NCBI GenBank assembly: GCA_903899985.1
Contig: CAIULL010000168.1
Location: forward strand, 1 to 64,000
DNA length: 64,000 nt
Origin: an uncultured Schlesneria sp.
Lineage (GTDB): Bacteria > Planctomycetota > Planctomycetia > Planctomycetales > Planctomycetaceae
Direction of reading: 5' to 3'
Of the stretch, positions 16,290 through 51,870 are shown one piece after another. The position numbers and the translations under genes are program-made. The notes below the pieces were generated by a model that searched no databases, was not told the origin of the DNA, and was given only the letters and a program-made list of their open reading frames with translations. Every line of letters begins with the position of its first letter. Position 1 is the first letter of the stretch.

Positions 16290-17482
16290 AGTCCGACAAG
16301 CCATCAGCAAGTACCACCAAACCCCTCGCGAACGACGTTACTGCCCTTAACCCGTCAAACCACGCGAACCGATCGGGCAGGCTTGCACAGGGGGCAGTTT
16401 TTGCGGGGGTGGCGGGCGAGATCGCATTGCATCAGTTATCGATACCCAAGCCCGCCGAATCCGAGGTCCTCGTTCGCGTGTCGGGCTGCACGATATGCGG
16501 AAGCGATCTGCATAGCTTTCACGGACGTCGAACCGTTCCCGTACCGACCATTCTGGGTCACGAGATCGTGGGTGAGATCGTCGACATAGGAGGTACGTCG
16601 GCAAGAATTGATCTGGAAGGACGGGAATTACAGTGTGGTGACCGCGTGACCTGGGCCATCATGGCGAACTGTGGGGCCTGCGATTTATGTCGACGAGATT
16701 TGCCTCAGAAATGCCTGCATGGTTTCAAGTATGGACATGAGCCCTTTCGTCCCGGTCGGGAGTTATCGGGGGGGTTGGCGGAGTATTGCCTTCTTGTACC
16801 AGGGACATCGATCGTTCGATTGCCCGAGGAACTTCCGTTGGCCGTTGCGTGTCCGGCGAGCTGTGCGACGGCCACGATTGCTGCGGCGTTGGAAGCCGCC
16901 GGAGACCTCACCGGCCGAACGGTTTGCCTGATCGGTGCCGGTATGTTGGGTCTCACTGCTTGTGCGATGTCGCGCGTTAAAGGTGCTGCAAAAGTCGTGT
17001 CCGTGGACCCCGTGTCCGCGCGAAGAAACCTTGCCATAGAATTTGGTGCGACTCGGACTTCTGATCCGGACGACCTCCCTGCGGTTGCGATGGAAGAAGT
17101 TGGTACGCTTGGCTTCGATGTGGTTGTCGAACTTTCAGGCAACCCGGCTGCGTTCCAACTGGTCTGGCCCTTGATTCGCACGGGAGGAATCCTTGTGTTG
17201 GTGGGTTCTGTGTTCCCCGGTCCTTCGATTCCGATTGCCCTGGAACAGGTCGTACGACGACACCTCACAATTCGAGGGATACATAATTATGCACCTCGGC
17301 ATCTGTTGGAAGCGGTGAAATTTCTGTCATTGGCACACACTCAATACCCGTTTGCTCGACTTGTTTCTGAATGGATTCCGCTCACGTCAATCGCTGATGC
17401 GTTCCGTCATGGCAGTCACCCCGACGCAATCCGGGTTGGCGTTTATTCAACGGACGCTTCACATCATGTCTCGGCCAGTTGA
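16286..17482 (+). CDS. Zinc-dependent alcohol dehydrogenase, phosphonate-catabolism-associated (TIGR03366-like)
   Basis: GCTICGSDLHSFHGRR, TILGHEIVGEIVDIG, NCGACDLCRRDLPQKC structural-Zn cysteines, GAGMLGLTACAMSRVKGA Rossmann motif. Confidence 0.85.
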   Translation: MKSDKPSASTTKPLANDVTALNPSNHANRSGRLAQGAVFAGVAGEIALHQLSIPKPAESEVLVRVSGCTICGSDLHSFHGRRTVPVPTILGHEIVGEIVDIGGTSARIDLEGRELQCGDRVTWAIMANCGACDLCRRDLPQKCLHGFKYGHEPFRPGRELSGGLAEYCLLVPGTSIVRLPEELPLAVACPASCATATIAAALEAAGDLTGRTVCLIGAGMLGLTACAMSRVKGAAKVVSVDPVSARRNLAIEFGATRTSDPDDLPAVAMEEVGTLGFDVVVELSGNPAAFQLVWPLIRTGGILVLVGSVFPGPSIPIALEQVVRRHLTIRGIHNYAPRHLLEAVKFLSLAHTQYPFARLVSEWIPLTSIADAFRHGSHPDAIRVGVYSTDASHHVSAS

Positions 17483-32318: not shown

Positions 32319-32454
32319 CATTCGCCTCGACGAAAATCGTGACAAGCACGAAAACATTTGTTTTCATTCGGGCCGCTCAGCAGCCGCATCAACGCGCGAA
32401 CGATTCTCCTATTCTCAGCCCATCGTTCGACGCGCATCAACCGGCTGTGCCGGT

Positions 32455-35400
32455 TCAATTCGCTTGAACTGCCGGTTTGGCGTTGTTCGGTGCGACGGCC
32501 ACCGGGCCGTCAGTTGGAGCCAATCGTAAGCGCATGTTGTACGACTTGAGATCGATTGAGGGCTCGCCGGGGTTAATTCCGACCGCGTGAAAACCACTGT
32601 AAGAAGACGGAATCTCGGCATTGATCAGCATCTTACCGGTTTGTTTGTGTATGGCGGTGAGATTTAATGTCCCAATTCCGATATTGGCCGGACCACGTGG
32701 TTTCCAGGATCGAGACACACACAGCAACACGGGTAACGTCGAGAATCGATCGATGACCAGATTCTGATGTTTGATCTCAAGTGGTGGCCAGGCAAATTGA
32801 TGACCTTTGCGATTCCAACAGTAGATCGTCCCATTCATCCGAATAGAAGCGAGGTTTTCGCCGTACGTTTGATGACCGCTATCCTGCGAATTGACGATCA
32901 GGTAAATCCGGTCGTCGTCGGAAAGCAAGTACCTTTCTTGAGGTCGTTCAACCTTCTTTCCCGGAATTGATTCGAGAGCCGTCATTTGGCCGGTCGCGAC
33001 ATCGATTCGCTGGATCTGGCCATCTGCAAAAAGGGCGACAACTTCGTCTTCTCCCAGTGGACTGACCAACGTTCCAGGTGGGAATTCAAGTTTCCATCTG
33101 GTTGAGTCTGTAACAGGGTCGTGAAGTCTCAATAAGACTTTTTGTCGGCCGATTCCGATCACCCTTAACGGATTTGAACCCGCAAATTCAAGCAATACAA
33201 GAGAAGATCCGTGTGCCATGATGGCGTTGTTTAACATTTTTGTGGCACCGGGAACCTCGAGCGGTTTGCCATCAATCGCGCGAAACGCCAGCGCTTCATC
33301 CTTGCCGGGGATGATGACGAACAGTGTGTCTCGAGTGCCGACAACAACAGCATGCATGGGAAGTCCATCGAGTTTCCATACTTCCTCTCCGGTTCGTGGA
33401 TCGAGAATCGAAAGAGATCGACGTCCATAAACGCACAAATAGTCTGGTTGAACGATTGCAAGACTGCCCGTTTGTTGTGCCCTTTGCAAAAACAATGATT
33501 GGGCACCATCGTTCTGACCGGGTGCCGTCATGGACCTCAAAACAAAGCGATTCGAATGACGCCCCGACGCAAGACCGTCATTCTGGTCCCCGAGTGACTT
33601 CGTCCAGAGGACTTGTCGGTCGACGGGTGAGATTGCGTGCAAGATCCCACGATTGACGAAAAACAATTGATGCCCAATTTGTCGGCAACTCAAGTGACCT
33701 TCATCGAGACCTCGACCGGCGGCACGAAGAGGGACCATCCATTCGACGGAACCAGTTGCGGACGATTCCAGGACAAGACGTTGTTCGTTCTGGTATGCAT
33801 CAATACTGATTCGATCAAAGAACGGTAATGGTGTATCGAGGATCACGTTTTGCGCGGGCTGAAGATGATTAACGACGGAATGGACTGGTCGCATCGGCGT
33901 TTCAGGCCAGGTCAACACCTGCGTTGCAGGCTCAAAATTGAGTTCCTTGTTTTCACGCGCGGCGTCTGCCAGTTTGATACCCGTCATCCCATCACGAACC
34001 AACACGTCAGGGTACTTTGACCTCAGTAATTCATAGTAATAAACAGCATCAGCGGGTCGTTGAACTTGAATCATCAACCTGGCCAGTCGCTCGACCGCTT
34101 GCGAGGCGACAGTCTGATTGGAGTCGCCGACCAGTTGCTGCAAAACGATCCGGGCACCCGCGAGATCCTTGGCGTCGACCAGCCATTCGACCAGTCGTTG
34201 CCGTGCATTGATCGCAGCCGGGTGGAACGAAAACAACGTGACGATGCGTTGGCAGTCTTTAAGGCTGAGACCTGCTGCTTCAGTGGTGATTCGCACGATT
34301 CGATCATCAATCACCTGTCGTTCGGCTTCTGGTGTCGCTGACCAGAGATCCAACATTCGGCCACTCAACCAGACAGTTCGTTTTGCCGTGATGCGACGAT
34401 CATCGGAACGAGTGATCTCGGTATCGCCTGACTCCTCTGCCAGTTTACGGATGACATCGAATGCCTCGACCGGTTTTTGTTCGCCCAGCAGCTTTTCAGC
34501 GGTCAATTCCCAATACAGCAGTTTCTCGGCCGGTGTTGCGGCCAGTCTTCGCAAATCCTCCAGTTCTTCGCCACGATGAAGAACGTCATTTTCGATAACG
34601 GTCGAAAGAGATTCAATGAGTGCCGCATGGTGTCGCGATCGTTCTTCCGGTAACAAGCGATCTGGGGCAATCCGTCGCAACAGGGAAAGAGCGTCAGAAT
34701 AGTCGCGGTTCAAAAGTTGTATTTCGCTTGAGCGCAACAACGCGGTCGGATCGTCTGGATCGGCCTTCAGTCGTTGTTGAATCTCTGCCAGCAGTGCATC
34801 ACGTTGCCGATAGACCGTTAATCCTGTCGGGCTGAGCGAAACCAGTTTTCCATGGTGCATTGCCAGATTGCCAAGCGAAGGTTGATTTGACGCGACGAAT
34901 GTTTGCGATAACCGCTTTCCGGTCGCTAATTCAAGGGAGCGCAATTCACCGTTATTCAATGGCAGATAAAAACGATCATCGACGACGACCCCGCGGCCGG
35001 ACGGTCGAATTCCGTCATCTAAGGGAGCTGACCAGGCTGTCAGTCCATCGGAAAGGTTGAATGCCGTGACACTTGTATCACCGACGATCAGGACCTTCTG
35101 GTCAAATACCCCGGCGAGGTAAAGCCCCTGTTCCTTCGGCTGTTCCCAGATACGACGCCCATCAACGGCGCTCAGGCAGACAAGAATGGGGTGTTCCTGC
35201 GGAGTATAAACGACATAATTTCCGACAATGACCGGTGCCGAAGGGGACCACAGCTCGTTCAAGTCACGTTGTTTAAGCAGCTGCGAACCATTTTCCTGTT
35301 CATTTTGGTCCCCACCCGAATTCGGTGTGTATCGATGAGCCCAAAGGACAGACTGCCGCATGCGGTCGATTGCGACCAGCCAACCAACGGTTGTCGGACA

Positions 35401-37194
35401 GATAATGACTCCGTCACCCACGGCAACCTGTGACGTAATCCATCGCCGGGCGATATCAAGATCGATTTTGGTATCAGCATATGCGATCAATTGCGACCAT
35501 TTTGGAACACCGGTTTGTCTGTCGAGTGACCAGAGCTTGATATCGTCACCCTTACCGGCAACGACGAACAATTCGTCGCCATCCACAGCAGGCGTTCCGT
35601 AGAAATATGATCCGGCGAGGGGAGGATCAAACGCTTCACGGGATTCGTTACCTCCCAGGCTCCACAACGTTCGTCCCGTCTGCAGGTCGTACGAGACCAG
35701 GCGGTTGGTTTTCCAGGGGAGTCCAAAAGGATCATTCGTATCGTTGTTGCCGTCCCAACCCCAATGTTGACCAGGCTGATTGCGCGAGAGAATTCCGTGA
35801 TCTTCGATGGCAAACAGTTGCTTTCCGTCGCTGCTGATCAGTCCATAAACGCCATCACGAAACAAAAGACTGGTCAGCGGACTGAATTCGGGCGCGGAGC
35901 CCTGATATTCGCTTAAATGCTGGAACGGATTGGCACGAAATCGCCAGGCGTCTTGAGGATCAACCTGTTGAGGGGGCAGTCCGCCGAGAATCCGTTCGGC
36001 GGAGACCCCTTCCACGCTTTCCCAGAGCGGGCGACCTCGTTCAATCTCGACACTGCGTATCCCTCGCAGATCGCGGTAAATCACCTTGCCATCCACGACC
36101 AGTGGAATCGAAGTCAGAATCATTGACCGCTTTTGATCCTGTAAGTCCTGAACGAGCCACTTCAGCGAGTCTCGTACCAGGCGGCTGGATGTGAGCGGCA
36201 AAAACCAGTCTGGCGAAAGCAGCGGGTCACCACCGATTGCGGTTCCGATTCGAGCTGCAGTTCCGTAAAGCTGAGTCCAATCCGCCAAAGCGACCGAATG
36301 CAAGGCCGTTTCCACCTGAACCTGCTGGAGCCATTCCGAGGCTTTAACAGAGCTGGTTCCGACCCCTACAAGCGTGTTCGGGCCCTTGGAAAGTTGACTG
36401 AGGATTGCGCTGGCTGCCGTGGAATCTCCTGATCGAGCGAAGGAAATCGCGGCTCGCAATCGCCAGGAATCACTCTTTGCAATCGGAGCAGGTGACGCGG
36501 CCAGTTCTTCAAACCACCTCGCCGCCAGGCCAAATTCGGAGCGGTCAAAGTGCAACATACCCAGATAGTTGGCCGCCTCGTATCCGGCGGCGGTGTGGAA
36601 AAATCGGGTCGCAACGTTCACGTACTCGGACGTTTGACCGCTACGACGCGCTGCGGTCAGTTGTTGCTGAGCCAGTCCACCATATTGCGACCGATACTCA
36701 ACCAGGGTCGCCTCAGGAAGTTGACCAAGCATCTGATTCGCGGTTCGACGAACCGATTGCCACGGTCCCTTCGCCGATCGGTGCAGCGAGTCTTCCGGTT
36801 GATCGAGCAGCCGTTGGAACAGTTCGATCGCCAATTTCCAATTTTTTTGTTTCACGGAAAGTTCGGCCGCCTGCAGCAGCTGTTCAATCTTTGCATCATG
36901 CGGTGCCCGACTGTCGATCGCATCGTGTCCCGATTCCGTGTTTTCCTTGTTGGGCTGATGATCAGGCAAAGGTCGCTTCCTCTGCGGAGCGCGACCGGGG
37001 TTTCCCTTGGGAACAAACACATCCCGAAAAAAATCCTGCAGTATTCGAACTTGTGCTTCGGTCGGTGCCGGGGGAATGTCTTTATCATCGGCAAAAGAAG
37101 TGAGTCCGCGCGACAGGACGATCGCGAGAAAAATGAACAAACCACGTCCTGCAGATGTCAGGAAAGTTGAATGATGAGATTGTTGACGACTCAT
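32455..37194 (-). CDS. Large secreted PQQ-like beta-propeller / TPR protein
   Basis: Signal peptide; TPR-like N-terminal segment; repeated PQQ blades such as VVAGKGDDIKLWSLDRQTGVPKWSQLI, SLSILDPRTGEEVWKLDGLP. Confidence 0.88.
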   Translation of the reverse strand: MSRQQSHHSTFLTSAGRGLFIFLAIVLSRGLTSFADDKDIPPAPTEAQVRILQDFFRDVFVPKGNPGRAPQRKRPLPDHQPNKENTESGHDAIDSRAPHDAKIEQLLQAAELSVKQKNWKLAIELFQRLLDQPEDSLHRSAKGPWQSVRRTANQMLGQLPEATLVEYRSQYGGLAQQQLTAARRSGQTSEYVNVATRFFHTAAGYEAANYLGMLHFDRSEFGLAARWFEELAASPAPIAKSDSWRLRAAISFARSGDSTAASAILSQLSKGPNTLVGVGTSSVKASEWLQQVQVETALHSVALADWTQLYGTAARIGTAIGGDPLLSPDWFLPLTSSRLVRDSLKWLVQDLQDQKRSMILTSIPLVVDGKVIYRDLRGIRSVEIERGRPLWESVEGVSAERILGGLPPQQVDPQDAWRFRANPFQHLSEYQGSAPEFSPLTSLLFRDGVYGLISSDGKQLFAIEDHGILSRNQPGQHWGWDGNNDTNDPFGLPWKTNRLVSYDLQTGRTLWSLGGNESREAFDPPLAGSYFYGTPAVDGDELFVVAGKGDDIKLWSLDRQTGVPKWSQLIAYADTKIDLDIARRWITSQVAVGDGVIICPTTVGWLVAIDRMRQSVLWAHRYTPNSGGDQNEQENGSQLLKQRDLNELWSPSAPVIVGNYVVYTPQEHPILVCLSAVDGRRIWEQPKEQGLYLAGVFDQKVLIVGDTSVTAFNLSDGLTAWSAPLDDGIRPSGRGVVVDDRFYLPLNNGELRSLELATGKRLSQTFVASNQPSLGNLAMHHGKLVSLSPTGLTVYRQRDALLAEIQQRLKADPDDPTALLRSSEIQLLNRDYSDALSLLRRIAPDRLLPEERSRHHAALIESLSTVIENDVLHRGEELEDLRRLAATPAEKLLYWELTAEKLLGEQKPVEAFDVIRKLAEESGDTEITRSDDRRITAKRTVWLSGRMLDLWSATPEAERQVIDDRIVRITTEAAGLSLKDCQRIVTLFSFHPAAINARQRLVEWLVDAKDLAGARIVLQQLVGDSNQTVASQAVERLARLMIQVQRPADAVYYYELLRSKYPDVLVRDGMTGIKLADAARENKELNFEPATQVLTWPETPMRPVHSVVNHLQPAQNVILDTPLPFFDRISIDAYQNEQRLVLESSATGSVEWMVPLRAAGRGLDEGHLSCRQIGHQLFFVNRGILHAISPVDRQVLWTKSLGDQNDGLASGRHSNRFVLRSMTAPGQNDGAQSLFLQRAQQTGSLAIVQPDYLCVYGRRSLSILDPRTGEEVWKLDGLPMHAVVVGTRDTLFVIIPGKDEALAFRAIDGKPLEVPGATKMLNNAIMAHGSSLVLLEFAGSNPLRVIGIGRQKVLLRLHDPVTDSTRWKLEFPPGTLVSPLGEDEVVALFADGQIQRIDVATGQMTALESIPGKKVERPQERYLLSDDDRIYLIVNSQDSGHQTYGENLASIRMNGTIYCWNRKGHQFAWPPLEIKHQNLVIDRFSTLPVLLCVSRSWKPRGPANIGIGTLNLTAIHKQTGKMLINAEIPSSYSGFHAVGINPGEPSIDLKSYNMRLRLAPTDGPVAVAPNNAKPAVQAN

Positions 37195-37389
37195 TCTCGA
37201 ATCCCTCGTTAGACCGAGCAGGACCGAATCAAGGCGAACACCAGAAAAGAAGCAGTGATTCGCCTGGCTTAACGCCATGATAAGTATATCCACCCCCCTA
37301 CCCTGCAGGTAGGTATTGTTTTCGCAGTTCTGCGGTAATTTCGGGTTTCATCGAGTGTGGTCGAGACTTCGAGGCCCGCCATGATTCGT

Positions 37390-47999: not shown

Positions 48000-48410
48000 T
48001 CAACTCGGATGAACCCATTCAGTCGTTCCGTCGTCCCAATTCTCCTTTTTCCAGATGGGGACCGAGACTTTCAATTCATCGATGAGGAACTGGCCTGCTT
48101 CAAAGGCCTGCTTTCGATGAGGACAACTGACGGCAATCGCCACGCTGATCTCACCGAGCTCAAGATGACCCAATCGATGAATGATCGCGACTTGATCAAT
48201 GGGCCATCTCGATCGTGCCCGGGACTCAAGCTCAGCCAGCTTGGCCTCGGCCATTTGTGGATAACCTTCGTATTCCAGTGCGACTGTTCGACGACCTTCG
48301 GTCATTTCCCGTACTGTTCCCAGAAACAGCACAACCGCTCCTGATTTCGATGACCGAACTGATTCCGTCAGGGCGTGGTAATCAATTGGCGTTTGTGTCA
48401 AAGCAAACAT
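48000..48410 (-). CDS. moaE: Molybdopterin synthase catalytic subunit MoaE
   Basis: GAVVLFLGTVREMTEGRRTVALEYEGYPQMAEAKL, IIHRLGHLELGEISVAIAVSCPHRKQAFEAGQFLIDELKVSVPIWKKE. Confidence 0.96.
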   Translation of the reverse strand: MFALTQTPIDYHALTESVRSSKSGAVVLFLGTVREMTEGRRTVALEYEGYPQMAEAKLAELESRARSRWPIDQVAIIHRLGHLELGEISVAIAVSCPHRKQAFEAGQFLIDELKVSVPIWKKENWDDGTTEWVHPS

Positions 48411-48527: not shown

Positions 48528-48770
48528 TTATCCCCCACTGACGGGTGGAAAACAGGCGACTTCGTCGCCAGTCCGAATGGCCGCGTCGTCTGCCGCATAG
48601 TCATTATTAACAGCAATCAGCAGTCGCGAAATCATCGGTTGCAATCCCGGATGTTTTTCCGTGAGGGCCTGCTTCAACTGGAGAACTGACTGCCCGTCGG
48701 ACCAGGGGATTTCGGAAACCGAGCTTCCCACGACGTCGCGAGCTTTTGCAAAAAACTTGACATGTAACAT
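48528..48770 (-). CDS. moaD: Molybdopterin synthase sulfur carrier subunit MoaD/ThiS-like
   Basis: MLHVKFFAKARDVVGSS; C-terminal DEVACFPPVSGG di-glycine. Confidence 0.93.
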   Translation of the reverse strand: MLHVKFFAKARDVVGSSVSEIPWSDGQSVLQLKQALTEKHPGLQPMISRLLIAVNNDYAADDAAIRTGDEVACFPPVSGG

Positions 48771-48792: not shown

Positions 48793-51700
48793 TTAAAGTA
48801 TTCTTAATCCCTTCGGCAGCGAATCACCTAAAATCAGCGATTCGTCGTCGGTCTCAAGGTTTGTCACCTTAGAAACCAATTCTCGATAGTGGTTTGCGAC
48901 CGCCGCGCGCTCCATGGATTTCAACACATGATTCCGTGTCGATTCGTCGATATCCCGGTAGCGATCACCGGTCTTTCTGGCGACTTGCATGGCGGCGAAT
49001 GCGACCAGATGTTCGGTGAAATCGTGTTTCACCAGTCCCATCAACCAGCGTGACGCCAGGTCTGCCGGCACGACCGTATTCAACGGCCCGTAAACGGGAC
49101 GACGTGCCCCGACTCGACCGAGTGACCAGTAACCAGATGGACGAAGCGCTGCGAACTTGGGCTTTTCCAGCATTTCCAGCAACAGATCACCAAGTTCTCG
49201 CTTCATCGCGATGGGCAAAAGTTCGCATGCCCCCAGCAGCCGAATCAGTTCGGAAGATTCATGCGTATTACTTCCGAAATCCGCACCCTTCCCTTTTAAT
49301 CCCGGTTGTCGGACCGCTTGTCTGAGCTGGCTGATCAGTGGGGCTGACAATGCCTGTTGTTGTCCGGCCGTCAGACCTCCCGCAATCCGCCGCCACAGGA
49401 TATACCATTCCGCACGACAAGCTGTGGTCGAGAACGCCAGATGGGTCTGAAGCAGTTTCCAGGTCTCGTTACAACGCCAGTCATCCACGGCCAGGCCATA
49501 GCCGGGTCTCAACGAGTACCCCACCAGATTAAGCCACCGGGCTTCGTGCTGAGCACTGATCTTCCGACCCGGCTCACACTCGATCAACGCTTCCCAAAAC
49601 TGACGCAGCAATGACGTCGGCCATTCATCGCGATCAAGCGCCAAAACCTCCACCAGATTCTTCACCACCGCCCCCACAGGGGGTTGATGCGCGTCGCGAG
49701 ATGGGTTAGACGTCGCCAAGTCTTTCGCGTTTTGTGGTTTTTTTGAATTCTCGATACCGCCTGCTGCTTCAACAGTCGCTTTCGAAAACGCACTCGTGAT
49801 AACATCGCGCGCCGATTGAACCACGTCATCGTCAAATAATCCCTGGCGCTCACCCGACGCATCATGGGCTGACACATCGGTCTGAGTTGCGGATCGAACA
49901 TCGAACAGCAGCTTCCACGAGCGCTTGCCATCCACCTCACTGCACCAGAGGTCGAGCGTACCGATTTCCGTTAACTTTGCCTTCAGGATCACGGCCACCG
50001 AGGCAGCCTCTTTTGACTTGCCGGTCTTAAGGACGGTTCGAATCGGTGGTAACGATTTGATCTGCTCGGGATCAATCGGGATCAGATCTCCGGGACGATC
50101 CGTCAATCGGGTGCTTGAAACGTACAGGGGAAATTCAATCGGCTGTGAAACCAGCAACTGAAACGTGTGGCGACTCAAATCGATCTCTTGCCCCGGCTCA
50201 ATTCCAGCAGGAACAAGACACAATGCCGAATGTCCTGAAAAATTGGGATTTGATGCATGACCACTTGATGATCCGTCTTGAGATTCCGGGTCCGCTCCGG
50301 ACCCCTCGACCCCAATGTAATATGACCGTGCCAGCCCTGCGTTAATGCGGACACCGACGCCGCGTCGCACCATTCCGTAATAGGCAGCTCCCCGTGCCAC
50401 AGCAAGATCGAGCCGTTCATTATCAAGTACAATCGGCGACCAGTTCGGATGATCCACCCGAAACCAACCTTGAAAGGCTCGTATCAATCGATCCCGCAAA
50501 ACCGGCGAAGCAAACACCCCCCCATTGAACAAGACTGCCGCCGCCACAGGCGGTTCGTGCGCGTCGGGAGATGGGTTCAAAATGGGGTGATCGCTTGCGC
50601 GTTGTGGGTTTTCTTTAATGCCTGAATTATTTGACGCGGTGTTGGGCGTTGCGACAGGCTGGCTTGGTGTTCCAATTGATCCCGAGATCAATTCGTCGTT
50701 AGCGGCAACGTCACGATGTGCTGACAGGAATGATGCCAGATATTTCGTGATGGCTGGGTCGGAGGCATACGGAAGGCCAAATTCCTGGAATCCTGATTTT
50801 AATGCCGCGGGCTTCATATCAAGCGGTACGTCAGGGAAGAACCCATCGGCTAATAGTAATTCCACTTCCTCGCGAGTCACCTGGACCTGGATCGAACCGC
50901 CGATCAGCTTGGAACCGCTTCCCGGCATGGTCAGGGTCCATTTCTCGGGGGCGTTGTCCCCCATCAAGACTTCCTTCAGTTGGCGGCAGCTGCGGACGAG
51001 GACCCCCCACTGTCTTGGTTCAAGCTGTCCACCCGGTTTGATCCGGTTTTCCAGGTGATGCGCCAGTGCGAGATCGAGGTTATCACCGCCGAGGATCAGG
51101 TGGTCACCCACAGCAACTCGATGGAATTGGATCTTTCCGTCAGTACCACTTCGTACTCGGATCAAAGTAAAATCCGTTGTTCCTCCACCGACGTCGCATA
51201 CCAGGATATTCTGACCGGGTGAGACAAGTTGTTCCCATGTCTCGGCATGTTTATCGATCCAGGCGTAAAATGCGGCTTGAGGTTCTTCGATCAGCACGAC
51301 ACGATGCAAGCCCGCCTCTTTCGCCGCCTTAATCGTCAGTTCACGTGCCACTTCGTCGAACGACGCTGGTAATGTCAATACAAAGTCCTGATCGGCAAGC
51401 GGGTGTTCGGGAAATTGAGCATCCCAGGCGTGGCGAAAATGTTCCAGGTAGCGGGCACTGACGGTGACTGGTGACAGTCGATCGACGTCTTCGGCCCCCT
51501 GCCAGGGCAAGAGGGCTGCTGTCCGATCGACTCCGCTGTGACAGAGCCACGATTTTGCGGATGAAATCAGTCTTCCGGGAACAAGCGTCCCGTGATCGCG
51601 AGCAAAATGTCCGACGGTATAGCTTCCGCTTCCGGGCCACGGGAGATTCAACGATTCAGCAGGAAATTCTCCGCTGGCCGGTTGATAATGGAATGACGGA

Positions 51701-51870
51701 AGAGTTTCACGCGATTCGACCACACCCGGCGCAACGACTTGTGGAACAAGAAAGGTGTGAATCGGACGCTTTTTTTCGGTCGTGTCTACGAACGCCATCG
51801 CGGAATTCGTCGTCCCGAGGTCGAGTCCGACGACGTATCGGCTGGGTTGAGACGGATCTGCTGCGGTCAC
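48793..51870 (-). CDS. Hsp70-family (DnaK-like) protein with extended C-terminal region and two in-frame repeat insertions
   Basis: VVGLDLGTTNSAMAFVDT phosphate-1 motif, VLIEEPQAAFYAW, ILVCDVGGGTTDFTLIRV; repeat-derived segments NPSPDAHEPPVAAAV and NPSRDAHQPPVGAVV. Confidence 0.92.
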   Translation of the reverse strand: MTAADPSQPSRYVVGLDLGTTNSAMAFVDTTEKKRPIHTFLVPQVVAPGVVESRETLPSFHYQPASGEFPAESLNLPWPGSGSYTVGHFARDHGTLVPGRLISSAKSWLCHSGVDRTAALLPWQGAEDVDRLSPVTVSARYLEHFRHAWDAQFPEHPLADQDFVLTLPASFDEVARELTIKAAKEAGLHRVVLIEEPQAAFYAWIDKHAETWEQLVSPGQNILVCDVGGGTTDFTLIRVRSGTDGKIQFHRVAVGDHLILGGDNLDLALAHHLENRIKPGGQLEPRQWGVLVRSCRQLKEVLMGDNAPEKWTLTMPGSGSKLIGGSIQVQVTREEVELLLADGFFPDVPLDMKPAALKSGFQEFGLPYASDPAITKYLASFLSAHRDVAANDELISGSIGTPSQPVATPNTASNNSGIKENPQRASDHPILNPSPDAHEPPVAAAVLFNGGVFASPVLRDRLIRAFQGWFRVDHPNWSPIVLDNERLDLAVARGAAYYGMVRRGVGVRINAGLARSYYIGVEGSGADPESQDGSSSGHASNPNFSGHSALCLVPAGIEPGQEIDLSRHTFQLLVSQPIEFPLYVSSTRLTDRPGDLIPIDPEQIKSLPPIRTVLKTGKSKEAASVAVILKAKLTEIGTLDLWCSEVDGKRSWKLLFDVRSATQTDVSAHDASGERQGLFDDDVVQSARDVITSAFSKATVEAAGGIENSKKPQNAKDLATSNPSRDAHQPPVGAVVKNLVEVLALDRDEWPTSLLRQFWEALIECEPGRKISAQHEARWLNLVGYSLRPGYGLAVDDWRCNETWKLLQTHLAFSTTACRAEWYILWRRIAGGLTAGQQQALSAPLISQLRQAVRQPGLKGKGADFGSNTHESSELIRLLGACELLPIAMKRELGDLLLEMLEKPKFAALRPSGYWSLGRVGARRPVYGPLNTVVPADLASRWLMGLVKHDFTEHLVAFAAMQVARKTGDRYRDIDESTRNHVLKSMERAAVANHYRELVSKVTNLETDDESLILGDSLPKGLRIL
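49665..49758 (-). repeat. Coding-sequence-embedded dispersed repeat, copy 1
   Basis: cccccacagggggttgatgcgcgtcgcgagatgggtt...cgcgttttgtggtttttttgaatt. Confidence 0.8.
50535..50621 (-). repeat. Coding-sequence-embedded dispersed repeat, copy 2
   Basis: ccgccacaggcggttcgtgcgcgtcgggagatgggtt...cgcgttgtgggttttctttaat; aligned with copy 1. Confidence 0.8.

Follow-up and report, generated by a model that had tools for sequence, protein, structure and literature searches.

Two segments of an Hsp70-family gene from an uncultured Schlesneria sp. are copies of a short palindromic repeat, here called element X, that recurs throughout the genome. X is probably a new REP/RPE-like family of short interspersed palindromic repeats without coding capacity of its own, multiplied in a lineage of four related freshwater Schlesneria species. 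Its characteristic site is directly past stop codons, in the sense orientation, and the copies inside genes are a minority. Coding-tolerant palindromic repeats are a known oddity in Rickettsia and in a few REP-rich genomes; X adds a case in Planctomycetota that seems to be independent of these.

Unit, copies and predicted structure of element X

The window, that is, the whole stretch of DNA analyzed, comprises 64,000 nucleotides. Its own genome (G000) has 8.0 Mb in 296 contigs and was compared with 14 others of the genus, namely three close X-rich relatives (G001, G004, and G005) and 11 congeners. The features of the window are as follows.

48793 to 51870, minus strand: host gene (ORF) for an Hsp70-family protein of 1025 aa with a C-terminal DUF3731 (Pfam PF00012, E 2e-18; PF12531, E 2e-76); orthologues in 15 of 15 genus genomes
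49668 to 49735, plus strand (antisense to the Hsp70 gene): X copy A; covariance-model match of 61 bits, E 4e-20; present in G000, G001, G004, and G005, missing from the other orthologues
49671 to 49683, plus strand: hairpin 1 of copy A, CCCCC-ACA-GGGGG, from the sequence and species comparison
49689 to 49732, plus strand: hairpin 2 of copy A (model columns 22-65); G000 keeps 10 of the 11 pairs, with pair counts from 41 copies
49672 to 49734, minus strand: coding part of copy A, translated as QNAKDLATSNPSRDAHQPPVG
50538 to 50605, plus strand (antisense to the Hsp70 gene): X copy B; covariance-model match of 81 bits, E 1e-27; presence and absence as for copy A
50541 to 50553, plus strand: hairpin 1 of copy B, CCGCC-ACA-GGCGG, from the sequence
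50559 to 50602, plus strand: hairpin 2 of copy B; G000 keeps 10 of the 11 pairs
50542 to 50604, minus strand: coding part of copy B, translated as QRASDHPILNPSPDAHEPPVA
32389 to 32456, minus strand: third X copy; covariance-model match of 89 bits; hairpin 1 begins 1 nt past the stop of the upstream ORF
32455 to 37347, minus strand: open frame of 1631 codons, stop to stop, with its TGA (32455-32457) directly ahead of the third X copy

A weak X-like match at 16326-16381(-) (nhmmer E 0.017) could be chance or the remnant of a decayed copy. Immediately downstream of the Hsp70 gene, two ORFs at 48000-48410(-) and 48528-48770(-) resemble by eye MoaE and MoaD, subunits of molybdopterin synthase.

The X unit measures 65 to 68 bp and exactly 65 bp within tandem arrays, with CCGG at its start and GTTGA at its end. 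The consensus of 41 aligned copies is nGnCCGGCACAGCCGGTTGATGCGCGTCGCAnGAnGGGTTCAGAATAGGGnnATCGTTCGCGCGTTGA. Copies A and B both belong to the training set of the covariance model, so their bit scores are not independent. A search with copy B alone recovered full-length relatives down to E 7e-14, its matches spanning the full unit, and copy A as the query gave many short matches. A sequence-only reading of this DNA had described two aligning copies of about 90 bp; both lie where it placed them, with a unit of 65 bp instead of 90. The two hairpins that it described and their common TGCGCGTCGSGAGATGGGTT are present, and its peptides NPSRDAHQPPVGAVV and NPSPDAHEPPVAAAV were found within the 1025-aa ORF. 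Its account is corrected in that both copies run antisense to the gene.

The consensus is predicted to form, both on the same strand, hairpin 1 (CCGGC-ACA-GCCGG) and then a longer, imperfect hairpin 2. The stem of hairpin 2 is GCGCGTCG.AYGA / TCGTTCGCGCGT, with 92% of the cells paired over the 41 copies, and GGGTTYAGAATAGGG is a conserved loop region. The mean folding energy of the X sense strand is −23.0 kcal/mol, versus −17.7 kcal/mol for the complement, and G.U pairs kept on the sense strand (e.g., columns 22:65) would be A.C on the complement. As for the paired changes noticed between the two hairpins, RNAalifold gave no covariation term for the 41 copies, and a few both-sides changes were found in hairpin 1; covariation is limited because most pairs scarcely vary. 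One such change separates copy A of G000 (CCCCC/GGGGG) from its orthologue in G004 (CCGCC/GGCGG), and one half of it alters an amino acid, from Ala to Gly. This change could be explained by structural selection or by template-directed palindrome correction. The predicted structure draws on conservation, strand asymmetry, and a few paired changes, and the compensatory evidence consists of few changes.

Distribution among genomes and placement behind stop codons

The covariance model (R1) gave at least 150 X matches in 86 clusters in G000, as dispersed single copies and as head-to-tail arrays of up to ten units; among the matches listed, 54 of the 58 neighboring pairs less than 400 bp apart are head-to-tail. 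An exact-core pattern with one mismatch allowed occurs 112 times in G000, 107 times in G005, 95 times in G001, and 84 times in G004, and 0 to 6 times in each of the 11 other genus genomes. Since the reversed pattern gave 0 to 2 hits per genome (0 to 1 per strand; one in G000) against at least 150 genome matches, the X matches are not chance. Further genomic copies, whose absence would have told against the sequence-only reading, exist in number. These copy numbers are lower bounds, because many copies lie at contig ends, and the compared genomes are mostly draft MAGs.

Beyond these genomes X is narrowly distributed. Among 298 genomes of the class, only 1 of 156 genera has X matches at E ≤ 1e-7, and the other 155 gave none above threshold. 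X was not found in the plasmids, phages, and viral contigs searched as horizontal vectors, and the Rfam 15 covariance models had no match at X in five copy-bearing loci. The nearest named relatives of the Hsp70 gene belong to uncultured Schlesneria sp. MAGs. Contigs C126, C148, C167, C209, C263, C291, and others of G000 end in or near X copies. Since many contigs terminate in this way, X arrays probably break the assembly; X can also mislead gene annotation in this group. Two further repeat arrangements were observed in G000. A second module, GGCGAGCCGGGGTGCGTCAGCCCCCGGA, occurs 37 times near X, and 29 of these occurrences lie downstream of X on the same strand, which gives a mosaic (L193, L202, L213, L216, L230, and others). 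An array at C40:7497-7907 (L247) consists of about ten 38-bp units, each with just the hairpin-2 part of X, and lies directly past a stop codon.

The placement of X relative to genes was determined with gene calls from a simple home-made hexamer gene caller. Among the 150 matches listed for G000, 131 lie between genes, 10 lie inside genes, and 9 overlap a gene end. Hairpin 1 begins at the first base past the stop of the nearest co-directional upstream gene in 14 of 96 runs, and 0 to 3 nt past the stop in 22 of 96 sense runs, compared with none when the strand is flipped; random intergenic placement (1000 trials) put a mean of 0.8 and a maximum of 6 runs at this distance. The same test in G005 and G001 gave 8 of 42 runs versus 0 flipped and 0.23 expected, which is a replication, though not a fully independent one, given the ancestry common with G000. 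The stops ahead of X are TAA (15), TGA (12), and TAG (4), and a fixed DNA target word such as TRR was rejected because many copies follow other triplets. The third copy in the window is of this stop-adjacent type. The position of X behind the stop is kept across species while the stop codon and the flanks change. No functional theme was seen among the upstream genes, which are diverse. Orthologous gene ends that lack X already end with the coding end and stop: those of C38 in G004 and G001, C35 and C164 in G005, and C254 and C153 in G001. At any single one of these, the direction, gain or loss, is not proven.

A shorter form of X, without hairpin 1, occurs in few copies in the distant Schlesneria genomes G006, G007, and G002, directly past the stop codons of unrelated genes (e.g., stop-TTTTTCATGCGCGTCGCGAGACGGGTTACGAATGGG). 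A G000 copy (C174) and a G002 copy (L100) stand behind the same gene, MurB-like by reading. The simplest reading of these sequences is that an old low-copy gene-end element would, in one clade, have acquired hairpin 1 and multiplied. In some long-form copies (L343, L374, and L376, in G005 and G001), the host ORF crosses hairpin 1 and stops (TGA, TAG, or TAA) directly before TGCGCGTCG, the place at which stop codons adjoin the short form. A captured gene end may be the origin of hairpin 1.

This habitat raises the possibility, which we hold to be real but somewhat doubtful, that X is primarily a functional 3' UTR RNA element, an mRNA-end stabilizer or a stop-proximal translational regulator, kept at gene ends by selection, with spread secondary and in-gene copies as side products. 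Such a role would account for the flush, strand-specific placement, for its persistence across species, for the occurrence of the short form behind stop codons of distant congeners, and for the better folding of the transcribed strand with its G.U pairs. Moreover, E. coli REPs within 15 nt of stop codons were reported to stall ribosomes and to lower the translational output of the gene ahead of them (PMC12306157). The diversity of the upstream genes, the many X copies far from any sense stop, and the orthologous gene ends without X speak against it, and the arrays of up to ten units, together with a copy number that depends on the lineage, suggest that X spread without one.

For X as an interspersed repeat, the flush placement poses a sharp question, as it may reflect either mRNA-end selection or an insertion preference. 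Selection at the mRNA end is a reasonable working model because an effect on translation was reported for stop-proximal REPs in E. coli (PMC12306157). As has been proposed for these REPs, a transcribed hairpin abutting a stop would be a 3' UTR structure that is either tolerated or of use to the cell. It is rather unlikely that the spread of X relies on recognition of stop codons themselves (or of the mRNA end or the terminating ribosome), with insertion directly behind any stop and the in-gene copies as rare off-targets.

Possible routes of spread

From copy number, arrays, and presence and absence among species, we infer that X is copied and mobile. Copies would arise through DNA-level copying by an enzyme, perhaps on the folded sense strand. 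No mobilizing enzyme was found at the G000 loci or from the genus counts, where neither the number nor the neighborhood of Y1 transposases tracks X. Because the intergenic flanks have diverged, none of the sites yielded a target duplication or an insertion junction that was clean on both sides. Regarding MITE features, the X consensus has no terminal inverted repeat, and the same flanks are too diverged for a duplication to be judged.

Mobilization of X, as a REP, by a RAYT (TnpA-REP) transposase resident in the same genome is distinctly unlikely. The strand-asymmetric hairpins, high copy number, and 3'-end habitat would suit such a system, and one of the 11 Y1_Tnp matches in G000 has X at a distance of about 200 bp from the predicted end of its coding region. 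However, X lies within the examined flanks at only 2 of these 11 loci, and the locus closest to X has its own GGGGACAGGTC inverted repeats. Genus counts of Y1_Tnp also fail to follow X, with 18 in G010 and 17 in G007, yet 0 to 5 X copies there. Furthermore, X has no GTAG/GGAG foot, and its arrays are head-to-tail, not inverted. A RAYT-driven REP is thus not supported by the neighborhood or the counts of Y1_Tnp. At L057:1100-1940 (G000:C18), a RAYT-like Y1 transposase gene lies between inverted GGGGACAGGTC repeats, and about 200 bp past its coding end stand X and the second module.

Integron attC sites were likewise rejected, as the GTTRRRY/RYYYAAC cores are not in the consensus by inspection and X stands behind ordinary chromosomal genes. 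A strong integron integrase match (433 bits) is present in G000 at C182:728-1675 (L271), on a 3-kb contig.

Copies inside genes and comparison with known repeats

The X consensus has one open frame per strand, and the antisense frame reads QRxxDxPILNPSxDAHEPAVP. Read-through copies inside genes mostly run antisense and add about 21 residues to variable linkers, twice in Hsp70 and once each in SPFH and LpxK. Alignment of the Hsp70 orthologues showed both linkers with X in G000, G001, G004, and G005, exactly the X-rich genomes. X is absent from both linkers in the 11 other congeners and in the more distant planctomycetes aligned, and the segments are hence not ordinary linker conserved in all orthologues, which would have told against the sequence-only reading. 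The SPFH protein carries X in the same antisense frame in all four X-rich genomes and lacks it in G014; in LpxK it occurs in that frame in G000, G001, and G004 (aligned) and is absent in ten congeners. Weaker same-frame copies were seen in the N terminus of a DAO oxidoreductase and in an OEP efflux protein. X is therefore in frame, and in the same frame, in several unrelated protein genes, with empty orthologues for Hsp70, SPFH, and LpxK, as in RPE-type repeats. Sister species with and without the inserts make repeat-driven protein change traceable site by site. That the Hsp70 segments are ordinary linker, alike by internal duplication or convergence, is hardly credible. Although other species also have linkers of variable length at both sites, each segment has more than 100 nucleotide-level counterparts elsewhere in the genome, most of them outside genes, and the same peptide frame recurs in unrelated proteins.

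Comparison of the four species gives pN of 0.12 to 0.23 and pS of 0.17 to 0.28 for the Hsp70 inserts, versus pN of 0.04 to 0.06 and pS of 0.41 to 0.48 for the rest of the gene. The near-neutral pN/pS indicates that the peptide is nearly unconstrained as protein, its nucleotides changing more slowly than the synonymous sites of the gene. At each of the three sites compared among the coding copies, the hairpin-2 stem is less variable than the unpaired columns; the same holds for hairpin 1 at Hsp70 copy B and SPFH, but hardly at Hsp70 copy A (0.22 versus 0.23). This lower stem variability, coming from short stretches, is suggestive only. An AlphaFold2 model of Hsp70 (mean pLDDT of 51.7, low) placed both inserts in coil below pLDDT 50, which is uninformative by itself. 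The insert peptides are most likely near-neutral passengers. Most insertions of X into genes would have been lost, the survivors being mainly those that are antisense, with an open frame, in tolerant linkers.

Several known systems invite comparison. Like X, the structures associated with Class 3 TnpA-Y1 in Planctomycetes and Acidobacteria have atypical secondary structures and reach high copy numbers in some genomes (PMC6006769). They flank the transposase gene and have a 5' CnGA foot, whereas X was not seen flanking Y1_Tnp genes and is without such a fixed foot. Stop-proximal E. coli REPs likewise place a hairpin near the stop; the likeness is one of position only, X typically lying exactly 0 to 3 nt away and in one fixed orientation.

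REPs of the GTAG and CGTC super-families are short, palindromic, and mostly intergenic, with a bias toward gene 3' ends, and are sometimes intragenic (PMC3733652). X is similarly short and palindromic, with more than 100 dispersed copies that are mostly extragenic (131 of the 150 matches listed), biased toward 3' ends and sometimes intragenic. In contrast, X clusters are head-to-tail, REP clusters are mostly inverted dimers, and no link of X to a RAYT gene was seen. No fixed tetranucleotide precedes hairpin 1 as a GTAG-type tag would. The CGTC super-family has an unpaired terminal CGTC, a stem of 8 to 9 bp, a loop of 4 to 5 nt, and a CCA-like tail; X does not share this layout, its CGTC lying inside the hairpin-2 stem. 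Since X is without the tags and the inverted-dimer organization that define the REP super-families, we do not file it as a member.

The Rickettsia palindromic elements, for which the published precedent is R. conorii, are in-frame palindromic repeats in unrelated protein genes (PMC3733652). X differs from them in its occurrence in Planctomycetota, its 65-bp length, its two separate hairpins, and its location, with most copies outside genes and many flush behind stops; the two are likened by description, not by sequence. The proposal that the Hsp70 segments are a planctomycete analogue of such an in-frame mobile repeat is supported as an analogy by the genome-wide copies, the empty orthologues, and the same frame elsewhere; its mobile part is what we infer, and the in-gene copies are a minority. 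Like the Rickettsia elements, X is palindromic, stands in frame in unrelated genes, some of which carry two copies, and is tolerated as added peptide.
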